A stretch of 64,000 bases of DNA, taken from contig OY282374.1 of the NCBI GenBank assembly GCA_958295815.1, forward strand, positions 2,500,856 to 2,564,855, read 5' to 3'. A model generated the notes under the pieces. The model did not search any database and was not told the origin of the DNA. It saw nothing but the letters and a program-made list of their open reading frames with translations. The stretch's first letter is position 1. Every line of letters begins with the position of its first letter. This stretch comes from Candidatus Poribacteria bacterium. Its GTDB lineage: Bacteria; Poribacteria; WGA-4E; WGA-3G. The translations under genes were made by a program, and so were the position numbers. Below are positions 59,604 through 63,761 of this stretch, piece after piece.

Positions 59604-59763
59604 ACTTTGATTGAGAAACAAGTGTCAAGCATTTTTTTACGAGATTATAGATAGAAATAGATAGAAAATGTTGGGTTGCAGTCTTCGTCCATTCGGAATA
59701 GGATTCGAGTCTATGGGCTGCATTGTAGCAAAAAAGATTGATAACCGATCAGGAAAAAAAGTA

Positions 59764-60900
59764 ATGGAGAATTATAACTGTTTTACCGACCCCAAATTGC
59801 CTGGGATCTATGAAAAAGTCAAGGCAGAAGAACGCCTCTCTTTTGAGGAAGGGGTCTCGCTTTATGAAAGCCCGGATATTACGGGCGTTGGGTTTATCGC
59901 AAACCATGTTCGTGAACGTCTAAATGGGAACGTCACCTACTATAACATCAATCAACATATAGATTATTCTAATGTCTGTATCCTCCATGCCCGGTGCCAC
60001 TTTTGTGCGTTTGCGAGAAAAAACATGCAGACCGAAGGTGCCTGGGAAATGAGTGTTGATGAGTTTTTAGACAAGGCGATGTACTCAATTGAGCACGGAT
60101 GCACAGAGATTCATAGTGTTGGCGGATTACACCCTAAATTGCCGTTTGATTATTACCTCGATATGATCCGCGGACTCAAAGAACGGATGCCGCAGGTACA
60201 CCTTAAATTTTTCACGGCTGTCGAGATTCACCACTTCTCTCGGATTTTCAAGATGTCGATAGAAGAAGTGCTAACGCAGCTACGGGACGCAGGATTAGAT
60301 TCACTGCCCGGTGGTGGTGCTGAAATCTTTGCCGAAGAGACACGTGAAAAGATCTGTCCTGGGAAACTCAGTGCAGAGGGTTGGTTAGAGGTACACGATA
60401 TTGCGCATCGCCTCGGTATCTCCACGAACGCGACGATGTTGTATGGACACCTTGAAACGAATGAAGACAGGGTTGACCACTTCATCAGGTTGCGGGAACA
60501 GCAGGATAAATCCGGTGGGTTCGTGACATTTATTCCACTGGCGTTCCATCCGCTGAACACCCGAATGGCATACTTGCCTTCAACGACTGGATTAACTGAC
60601 CTTCGGAACATTGCCGTGGCACGCCTCATGCTCGATAATATACCGCATATCAAGGTTTATTGGATCATGACCGGCTTGAAGACAGCACAGGTTGCCCTCC
60701 GTTTCGGCTCAGACGATATCGACGGCACCGTAACTGAGGAAAAGATCACACACATGGCAGGTGCCGACACACCGGAATCTGTCACTGTTTCGCAGCTAAC
60801 GCATCTCATTGAAGAAGCTGGCTACGTGCCTGTCGAGCGCGATACGCTTTACAATGAAATTATTCGAGAGGGGAATCAGTGGTACAGAAAAGCCGCATAA
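59764..60900 (+). CDS. mqnE: aminofutalosine synthase (radical SAM, menaquinone synthesis)
   Basis: 378 residues from ATG 59764 with AGGA upstream; ATGs at 59668 and 59713 would add non-conserved residues. NVTYYNINQHIDYSNVCILH and ARCHFCAFARK hold the cluster cysteines, spaced CX5CX2C rather than the usual CX3CX2C. HSVGGLHPKLPFDYYLDM, LPGGGAEIFAEETREKICPG and TNATMLYGHLET follow the MqnE pattern. MqnE joins the MqnA product to SAM to give aminofutalosine. Next gene mqnA overlaps by 22 bp, which supports the assignment over the related CofG/CofH or MqnC. Confidence 0.88.
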   Translation: MENYNCFTDPKLPGIYEKVKAEERLSFEEGVSLYESPDITGVGFIANHVRERLNGNVTYYNINQHIDYSNVCILHARCHFCAFARKNMQTEGAWEMSVDEFLDKAMYSIEHGCTEIHSVGGLHPKLPFDYYLDMIRGLKERMPQVHLKFFTAVEIHHFSRIFKMSIEEVLTQLRDAGLDSLPGGGAEIFAEETREKICPGKLSAEGWLEVHDIAHRLGISTNATMLYGHLETNEDRVDHFIRLREQQDKSGGFVTFIPLAFHPLNTRMAYLPSTTGLTDLRNIAVARLMLDNIPHIKVYWIMTGLKTAQVALRFGSDDIDGTVTEEKITHMAGADTPESVTVSQLTHLIEEAGYVPVERDTLYNEIIREGNQWYRKAA

Positions 60901-61718
60901 GGGTAGGCGCGGTCTCTTTCCTGAACACTAAACCGCTCATTTATCCCCTTTTGAACAAAGAAATCGAAACGGATATTGTGCTCAGTGTTGATGTCCCCAG
61001 TCGTGTCGCCTCACTTTTGAGCAAAGGCGAACTTGATGTCGGATTGATTCCGATTGTCGAATACTTTCGTGCGAATCCTTTAGATACGCGGTACCGCATT
61101 TTACCCGACATATCAATCACATCGCACGGACACGTCCGAAGTATCCAATTGTTCAGTCGTGTACCGGTTCAGGACATTCGACGCATCGCGCTCGATACCA
61201 ACTCGCGTTCTTCTGTTGCGCTCCTGAAAATTTTACTCGCTGAACGCTATCGGATCTCGCCAAGTTTCACAACGTGTGCCCCAACTGTAATCCCAAAGAC
61301 AGCACTGGAAAATCGTCAAGACCCGCCTTTTGAAGCCGTCCTCCTTATTGGAGATGGCGCACTGAGGCACCTCGGCTCGACAGAATATAGTATTGATCTC
61401 GGTGAGGCGTGGTATAAACTAACGGGTTTCCCTTTTGTCTATGCCTGTTGGGTGGCAAGGGAAGAAGTTGACCTCGGCGATTTACTGCAGGTACTTCTTA
61501 AATCAAAGGCACGTGGGACGGCGCAAATACCGGAAATCGCACGGATTGAGGCAGAAAGATTGGGGTTACCGGAAAAACTCTGCCGTGCCTATTTGCAAGA
61601 TAGCATCAAATATGATCTCGATGAATCGGCAATCGCGGGAATAGAACTTTTTTACAAGTACGCCGTAAAGCACGATCTCGCGCCACCGTGCCGCAGTCTC
61701 TCTTTTAAATCTGGTTGA
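60879..61718 (+). CDS. mqnA: chorismate dehydratase (menaquinone synthesis)
   Basis: 279 residues, periplasmic-binding-protein-like fold (VitK2_biosynth family). RIRVGAVSFLNTKPLIYPLL, GELDVGLIPIVEYF and IALDTNSRSSVALLKILLAE are the conserved blocks; Ser and Asn in these regions bind the substrate in known structures. It removes water from chorismate to give 3-enolpyruvylbenzoate, the first step of the futalosine pathway. GTG start with GAGAGGGG upstream, 22-bp overlap with mqnE. MqnB, C and D are not in the window. Confidence 0.92.
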   Translation: MVQKSRIRVGAVSFLNTKPLIYPLLNKEIETDIVLSVDVPSRVASLLSKGELDVGLIPIVEYFRANPLDTRYRILPDISITSHGHVRSIQLFSRVPVQDIRRIALDTNSRSSVALLKILLAERYRISPSFTTCAPTVIPKTALENRQDPPFEAVLLIGDGALRHLGSTEYSIDLGEAWYKLTGFPFVYACWVAREEVDLGDLLQVLLKSKARGTAQIPEIARIEAERLGLPEKLCRAYLQDSIKYDLDESAIAGIELFYKYAVKHDLAPPCRSLSFKSG

Positions 61719-61732
61719 AAGGGGACAAAAAA

Positions 61733-62233
61733 ATGCAATCTGCTAACGAATCCACACTCGATACCGAGCTTGTCAAACAGTTTGAAGACTACCTTAAAAG
61801 CACTGGACTCCGTTTGACACAAAAGCGATTGGATATCTTACACCAAGTTTTTGACTATCCTGGCCACTTCCAAACGGAAGACCTCTTGGTTCAGATGCGT
61901 CGCAATGGGTATCTGGTGTCACGCCCGACGATCTATCGGACACTGCCACTGCTCGTGAGAAGCGGGTTATTGACCGAATTCATTGATGCGCAGAAAAACA
62001 CTCGCTATGAGAGCATCCACTCTCTCCAGGAACACGCCCATCTTATCTGCCTTCGGTGCAATCAGATTGTTGAATTTAAAGAACCACGGATTGACGCCTT
62101 ACAAAAATCGGTGTGTGAAGCGCACCAATTTAAAGCAGTGCGCTTCCGTAATGAGATCATCGGTCATTGCGCAGAATGCCAAGCAGAACTGGAACCAAAA
62201 ACGACTGAAACGAATAACGAGGCTACTGCTTAA
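61733..62233 (+). CDS. Fur-family transcriptional regulator
   Basis: 166 residues from ATG 61733 (AAAGGGG 10 bases upstream; a TTG at 61715 would add six residues). Winged helix with YLKSTGLRLTQKRLDILHQV and SRPTIYRTLPLLVRSGLL (recognition helix). The dimerisation domain has a zinc site with ICLRCNQIVEF and GHCAECQAEL (two CxxC) and the metal-sensing HAHLI. Whether it senses Fe, Zn, Mn or peroxide is not clear. It follows mqnA by 14 bp, so it is cotranscribed with menaquinone genes, an unusual partner. The 3' end overlaps the convergent gene by 11 bp. Confidence 0.88.
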   Translation: MQSANESTLDTELVKQFEDYLKSTGLRLTQKRLDILHQVFDYPGHFQTEDLLVQMRRNGYLVSRPTIYRTLPLLVRSGLLTEFIDAQKNTRYESIHSLQEHAHLICLRCNQIVEFKEPRIDALQKSVCEAHQFKAVRFRNEIIGHCAECQAELEPKTTETNNEATA

Positions 62234-62994: not shown

Positions 62995-63023
62995 TTGACA
63001 AGCATCTGGAAATGTTGTATAAT
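62995..63023 (+). promoter_or_regulatory. consensus sigma-70 promoter of the Fe-S assembly genes
   Basis: TTGACA (62995-63000), 17-bp spacer, TATAAT (63018-63023): a perfect consensus 39 bp before the ATG. No Fur or IscR box was recognised. Confidence 0.9.
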
Positions 63024-63061: not shown

Positions 63062-63433
63062 ATGTATACGCCACAGGTGATTGAACACTACGATAACCCG
63101 CGCAACGTTGGTAGTATCACCGATGCTGATGGAACGGCTACTGTCGGCTCTGCTGCCAAGGGCGAGATGGTAAAACTGACCCTTAAGGTATTGGAAAACG
63201 TGATTGTTGGAGCGAAGTTTCGAGCGTTCGGATGTCCGACTGCTATTGCGAGTGCTTCTGTCCTCACGGAAATGGTTACAGGACGCAATATCCCTGAGGC
63301 ACTTCAAGTTACCGCTACACATCTTTCCGATGCATTAGGTGGGCTGCCGCTGGATAAACAGCGTTATGCGGAGGCGGCTGAAGAGGTATTAAAAACGGCA
63401 ATCGCTGATTTTATGTCTAAAACGGAGGTGTAA
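63062..63433 (+). CDS. NifU/IscU-like protein with only one of three conserved cysteines
   Basis: 123 residues. YTPQVIEHYDNPRNVGSI and AFGCPTAIASASVLTEMV are unmistakably IscU/NifU N-terminal domain. IscU binds the nascent Fe-S cluster with three cysteines. Here the first (CGDxM) is replaced in VGSAAKGEMVKL (K33 at the Cys position, Glu for Asp), the second is kept as C58, and the third (KLHCSxLA) reads DKQRYAEAAEE. The protein has no other Cys. It may act as a different scaffold or partner protein. The IscA-type gene follows 4 bp downstream. No iscS is visible in the window. Confidence 0.85.
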   Translation: MYTPQVIEHYDNPRNVGSITDADGTATVGSAAKGEMVKLTLKVLENVIVGAKFRAFGCPTAIASASVLTEMVTGRNIPEALQVTATHLSDALGGLPLDKQRYAEAAEEVLKTAIADFMSKTEV

Positions 63434-63437
63434 CACC

Positions 63438-63761
63438 ATGATTAGTGTTACAGAATCTGCAGCACAAAAAGCTATCACACTTATTAGTAACAACGAATCC
63501 GAATCCGAACTCGGCTTACGCATGCAAGTGGTCGGCGGTGGATGCTCCGGCTTCCAGTACAGTATGGAATTCGGCGCAGCGAAAGATACCGACAGAGTGT
63601 TTGAATTTCACGGCTTAAAGGTCTTCATTGACCCCAGAAGCACGCTCTACCTCGCAGGTTCAGTGCTCGACTATAACGACGGATTGATGGATTCAGGTTT
63701 TAAGATTACGAACCCGAATGCCAAGAATACATGCGGTTGCGGTGAGTCGTTTAGCGTTTAA
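63438..63761 (+). CDS. A-type iron-sulfur carrier (IscA/ErpA family)
   Basis: 107 residues. VTESAAQKAITLISNNE start, then LGLRMQVVGGGCSGFQYSME (C36) and NTCGCGESFSV (C99, C101), the complete three-cysteine set of A-type carriers, which accept Fe-S clusters from scaffolds and pass them to client enzymes. GGAGG lies 10 bases before the ATG, overlapping the end of the IscU-like gene. Cotranscribed with it. Confidence 0.93.
   Translation: MISVTESAAQKAITLISNNESESELGLRMQVVGGGCSGFQYSMEFGAAKDTDRVFEFHGLKVFIDPRSTLYLAGSVLDYNDGLMDSGFKITNPNAKNTCGCGESFSV

Follow-up and report, generated by a model that had tools for sequence, protein, structure and literature searches.

Few known proteins are as conserved as IscU, whose three cysteines are regarded as indispensable. 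Can an IscU that has lost two of them still have a function, and if so, which? The question is raised by a gene in a stretch of 64,000 nucleotides (the window) of contig OY282374.1 from a Candidatus Poribacteria bacterium (assembly GCA_958295815.1). The gene encodes an IscU-fold protein with a lone second ligand Cys, which we call IscU* (Table 1). The first ligand Cys is replaced by K33 and the Asp of the CGD motif by E35, the second Cys is retained as C58, and the third Cys and its preceding His are replaced by Y102 and R101. The open reading frame thus reads exactly as in the first-pass annotation, which had reported a single ligand Cys with Lys and Tyr at the first and third positions and Glu for Asp.

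Table 1. Coordinates of iscU*, its surroundings and further loci mentioned in the text (window positions unless a locus is named).
Feature	Position	Strand	Details
Radical-SAM gene resembling aminofutalosine synthase	59668-60900		ahead of MqnA-like gene
MqnA-like gene	60879-61718		before Fur-family regulator gene
Fur-family regulator gene	61715-62233		directly upstream of iscU* in genus g1
Sigma-70 consensus promoter	62995-63023	+	TTGACA-N17-TATAAT, perfect match
IscU*	63062-63433	+	123 aa, ATG start
IscU* K33 codon	63158-63160	+
IscU* E35 codon	63164-63166	+
IscU* C58 codon	63233-63235	+
IscU* R101 codon	63362-63364	+
IscU* Y102 codon	63365-63367	+
IscA/ErpA-like A-type carrier	63438-63761	+	TIGR00049, 117.8 bits (cut-off 58.8)
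NfuA-like fusion	L085:1408-2070		window's genome, about 1405700
NifS-A gene near threonyl-tRNA synthetase-like gene	L169:2833-8021		also L171, L173; families f1, f2, f4
sufS-sufE	L208:8443-10075		also L211, L212; family f3

The affiliation of IscU* is clear from profile searches, in which PF01592 (NifU_N) aligns over the full length (E 2.4e-35); the NCBIfam IscU/NifU models match as well, yet score under every equivalog cut-off. An AF2 model with 32 aligned relatives as input has a mean pLDDT of 96, and its closest matches in the PDB are structures of IscU (TM 0.91 to 3LVL_A and 7c8m_A, 0.94 to 4eb5_C). The fold is predicted to be unaltered relative to IscU. Compared by structure search with the IscU/NifU_N scaffolds (TIGR01999, TIGR03419; E. 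coli 3LVL, A. fulgidus 4EB5), IscU* shows TM values of 0.84-0.94 and about 42-44% identity, and shares the N-terminal helix, the IscS-contact residues, the FGC cysteine and the adjoining iscA gene. It is a homologue of canonical IscU in fold and sequence but differs in that C58 alone remains of the three cluster/Zn cysteines, the His ahead of Cys-3 and the Asp of CGD are replaced, and the HscA site LPPVK is broken to LPxDK (E. coli V102 corresponds to D98), with no HscB found in the genome as partner.

Two sulfur-transfer proteins invite comparison. SufU of Bacillus subtilis and Mycobacterium tuberculosis, a zinc-dependent sulfurtransferase, has the IscU fold, occurs in the same genomes and may share with IscU* the role of sulfur acceptor. 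SufU differs by its three Cys, its Zn and the use of the first Cys as acceptor, whereas IscU* has neither Cys-1 nor Cys-3, lacks the 21-23 aa insertion between Cys-2 and Cys-3 and lies outside both the suf locus and the SufU clade. The transpersulfurases SufE/CsdE, with a single essential Cys and no metal, resemble the acceptor proposed for IscU* and have a related fold (PMC10216065). IscU* shows no PF02657 homology, however, and a profile alignment of SufE with IscU* gave no signal (hhalign probability 0.2%, shallow alignments).

A NifU_N search of 60 relatives revealed two match classes in most genomes. In a single order of sponge-associated Poribacteria, most members retain IscU*, and 64 orthologues from three of its families (f1, f2 and f4) were aligned. 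The first-pass annotation had named orthologues with three Cys as the sign of a sequencing error; none of the 64 has Cys-1 or Cys-3, and all have Cys-2 (C58). Position 33 is variable but never Cys (43 Ser, 12 Asp, 6 Asn, one each of Lys, Thr and Arg), while position 102 is Tyr in 60 and Phe in four. Position 35 is acidic throughout (62 Glu, two Asp), R101 is replaced once (by His), K99 is present in 64/64 and D98 in 61/64. C58 and K99 have zero entropy, compared with a mean of 0.95 bits, and the other cysteines of IscU* come and go among orthologues. Pairwise comparison gave IscU* a median dN/dS of 0.14, against 0.063 in the case of IscA. Preservation of IscU* by purifying selection is well supported. 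All named IscU* records are Candidatus Poribacteria, and the next nearest matches (KSB1, Gastranaerophilales, Elusimicrobia, Proteobacteria) all have three cysteines. Among open-licence papers, to which the search was confined, we found no prior description of Cys-lacking IscU-like proteins or of Poribacteria IscU.

The promoter ahead of iscU* is the sole perfect match to TTGACA-N17-TATAAT within the window, 0.02 being expected by chance. A matching promoter precedes 40 of 43 orthologues, although spacers and leaders differ, and all of a further 20 (20/20). The A-type carrier gene, which begins 4 bases past the IscU* frame, is intact with all three cysteines (GGGCSG...TCGCGESF). The iscU*-iscA pair is conserved across the three families, and iscA was found downstream in 18/20 of the later-added orthologues within the short stretch fetched. 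From the conserved promoter and gene pair, iscU* is probably expressed. The intact neighbour and the perfect promoter of the first-pass annotation were both recovered, and its view of the gene as expressed and maintained is well supported by the purifying selection and by the conservation of promoter and operon in three families.

Further upstream, genus g1 has genes for a Fur-family regulator, an MqnA-like protein and a radical-SAM protein (Table 1), a neighbourhood that is absent from f2 and f4. One contig of an f4 genome (L068, G046:C247) carries an iscU*-iscA region of f1 type in which part of the gene sequence is undetermined, and probably reflects contamination of that assembly.

In the phylogenetic tree, IscU* forms a single clade (99/100) on a long stem (0.85) and groups with ISC-type IscU, not with SufU. 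Canonical IscU with the CGD, FGC and HC motifs occurs in genomes of sister families of the same class (G051, G053, G054 and G055), and in G054 the genes iscS-iscU-iscA-hscB-hscA-mrp are arranged in one run. In the f2, f3 and f4 genomes examined (L174, L177, L172), a class-I (B-type) desulfurase gene lies beside a gene for an Mrp/ApbC-like ATPase (mrp), a pair that seems to be left over from the ancestral isc operon. Within the window's order, iscU*-iscA sits away from this pair, and a search of the window's genome gave no HscB. The separate gene pairs and the missing HscB look like a dismantled ISC operon.

The first-pass annotation had proposed a search for a second, canonical IscU/SufU or for SufBCD. 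Both SufU and SufBCD are present: the window's genome contains sufC-sufB-sufD-sufS-sufU with a canonical SufU, which rules out IscU* as its sole NifU-type protein. All IscU* genomes checked have a complete SUF system, with a separate canonical SufU gene adjoining sufS. SufB/D matches were obtained in every genome tested of the order, including f3, but not in the canonical-IscU genomes G053, G054 and G055, and only as a stray match of 49 residues in G051. Canonical IscU and SUF are thus mutually exclusive among the examined genomes of the class. Since the loss of IscU ligands accompanies SUF and SUF excludes canonical IscU, cluster assembly in the IscU* order is very likely SUF-based; cluster building very likely shifted to SUF while IscU turned into a pseudo-scaffold.

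SufE (PF02657) was found in three of the 73 genomes of the order (G037, G040 and G042, all of family f3) and in none of the other 70, among them the window's genome. The three f3 genomes have neither IscU* nor SufU, sufE follows sufS, and a stand-alone iscA is retained. The gene order sufS-sufE in f3 and sufS-sufU elsewhere is a clean SufU/SufE exchange within the order. This contrast is suggestive in placing IscU* with sulfur transfer. As f3 branches basally in the SufB tree, it amounts to one event and may be the ancestral state.

Could IscU* still meet a desulfurase? In the crystal structure of the E. coli IscS-IscU complex, the IscU contacts are Tyr3, Tyr11, Gly38, Val40, Lys42, Lys59-Gly64 and Lys103, and among the point mutants tested K103E alone disrupted IscS binding (PMC2854127). 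The same study cites a disulfide between the catalytic Cys328 of IscS and Cys63 of IscU, proposes that Asp39 assists sulfur transfer, and reports that transfer persists after loss of any single IscU Cys (PMC2854127). By alignment, IscU* has equivalents for most IscS contacts (Y2, Y10, G34, M36, K38, R/K54-P59 and K99), K99 corresponding to K103, and so appears to possess the IscS-docking residues. G34 is present in 63/64 orthologues, K38 in 61/64, and FGC is retained; Y2 occurs in 47/64 (His in 15/64) and Y10 in 45/64 (Phe in 17/64). Exactly the equivalents of Cys63 (C58) and, as E35, of Asp39 are kept. The sulfur acceptor of SufU is the first Cys (Cys40 in M. tuberculosis), and human ISCU is reported to accept sulfur on the third. 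No iscS, nifS or sufS gene was seen adjoining iscU*, whose conserved partner is iscA. The two NifS-like desulfurases of the window's genome (NifS-A and NifS-B) are without the long C-terminal tail that binds IscU in E. coli IscS, and both genes are likewise found in f3, where IscU* is missing. In f1, f2 and f4, a threonyl-tRNA synthetase-like gene lies in the vicinity of the NifS-A gene.

That IscU* is not a canonical scaffold is supported by the loss of two ligand cysteines (Cys-1 and Cys-3), of the His and of the HscA motif, and by the takeover by SUF. We tentatively favour a pseudo-scaffold role in which IscU* binds a cysteine desulfurase, with C58 serving as sulfur acceptor or for control of flux. 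SUF would have replaced ISC-type IscU as cluster builder in the ancestor of the order, IscU* keeping the fold, the docking surface and one invariant thiol at the Cys63 position. IscU* could dock on either NifS/IscS-like enzyme or on SufS; C58 would take the sulfur as persulfide, assisted by E35, and the protein, constitutively co-produced with the IscA carrier, would pass it on or tune desulfurase flux. With greater reserve, we consider it possible that, with the losses of Cys-1 and Cys-3, the whole lineage turned its ISC scaffold, after the SUF takeover, into a stand-alone single-thiol sulfur-transfer protein with a SufE-like role. An acceptor role is supported by the invariance of C58 and K99 and near-invariance of E35, R101 and Y102 around a variable position 33; by the retained IscS contacts and the known Cys63-IscS disulfide of E. 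coli; by the loss of features that serve only cluster building or release (Cys-1, Cys-3, His, HscA motif, HscB); and by SUF in the IscU* genomes, SufE just where IscU* and SufU are missing, and the low dN/dS. Against it stand the absence of both the first and the third Cys, the acceptors in SufU and, reportedly, human ISCU, the lack of a desulfurase gene beside iscU*, the tail-less NifS-like enzymes, the single phylogenetic event behind the SufE contrast, and the replacements of Tyr2 by His and Tyr10 by Phe in some orthologues.

A pure adaptor or regulator, which binds IscA and/or the desulfurase and times or directs cluster transfer with C58 as a structural residue and without itself carrying out any sulfur or cluster chemistry, seems rather unlikely to us. 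The conserved pairing with an intact iscA under one strong promoter would suit it, and the same genome offers a precedent in an NfuA-like fusion. There, too, a Fe-S carrier domain has lost its ligand cysteines and is still retained, albeit in another fold and fused to an Nfu domain: in the A-type domain ISIQGRTATAFQY replaces GGGCSGFQY, making this the second degenerate Fe-S carrier of the genome. The degenerate A-type domain of NfuA has been described as not binding a cluster (PMC8593673). Against it, C58 is invariant although other cysteines vary, E35, R101 and Y102 are retained around the thiol, and IscA of f3 does not need IscU*.

This persistence of IscA in f3 also weakens the idea of a [2Fe-2S] cluster shared in a dimer of IscU* or in a heterodimer with IscA, each IscU* contributing one C58 and the other ligands being supplied by E35, by cysteines of IscA or by a small thiol. 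Monothiol glutaredoxins, which share a cluster with glutathione, provide a model; in its favour, an invariant Cys and an invariant acidic residue remain in the old ligand pocket, and iscU* is consistently paired with the gene of an intact A-type carrier. With Tyr/Phe and Arg at the other ligand positions, unfavourable to a cluster pocket, and with the HscA motif and HscB for cluster release gone, we regard it as unlikely. Zn binding at the ligand site is known for IscU and SufU, and a mononuclear Fe or Zn site could use the retained Cys and carboxylate of C58 and E35; the replacement of Cys-1, Cys-3 and the His by poor metal binders makes such a site improbable. Loss of two ligand cysteines might in itself indicate a remnant without function, or an error in sequencing or assembly, but 64 orthologues in independent assemblies with intact frames, a dN/dS of 0.14 and conserved promoter and operon exclude an error or pseudogene and leave next to no chance for a remnant. 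The first-pass annotation had called for a different mechanism, dimer-shared ligands or a non-cluster function. The departure from the canonical scaffold is supported by the ligand, His and HscA-motif losses and by SUF; between dimer and non-cluster function, the docking surface and the SufE exchange tilt the balance towards a sulfur-transfer or adaptor role. IscU* thus probably hands on sulfur or serves as an adaptor instead of assembling clusters.

IscU* is an order-wide natural mutant of IscU that is under selection with one cysteine and carries a perfect consensus promoter, and it documents the dismantling of ISC once SUF is present. In this protein, docking on the desulfurase and acceptance of sulfur may be uncoupled from the assembly of clusters. 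A debated point thereby becomes testable, namely which IscU cysteine takes the sulfur, and whether the Cys63 position alone suffices.
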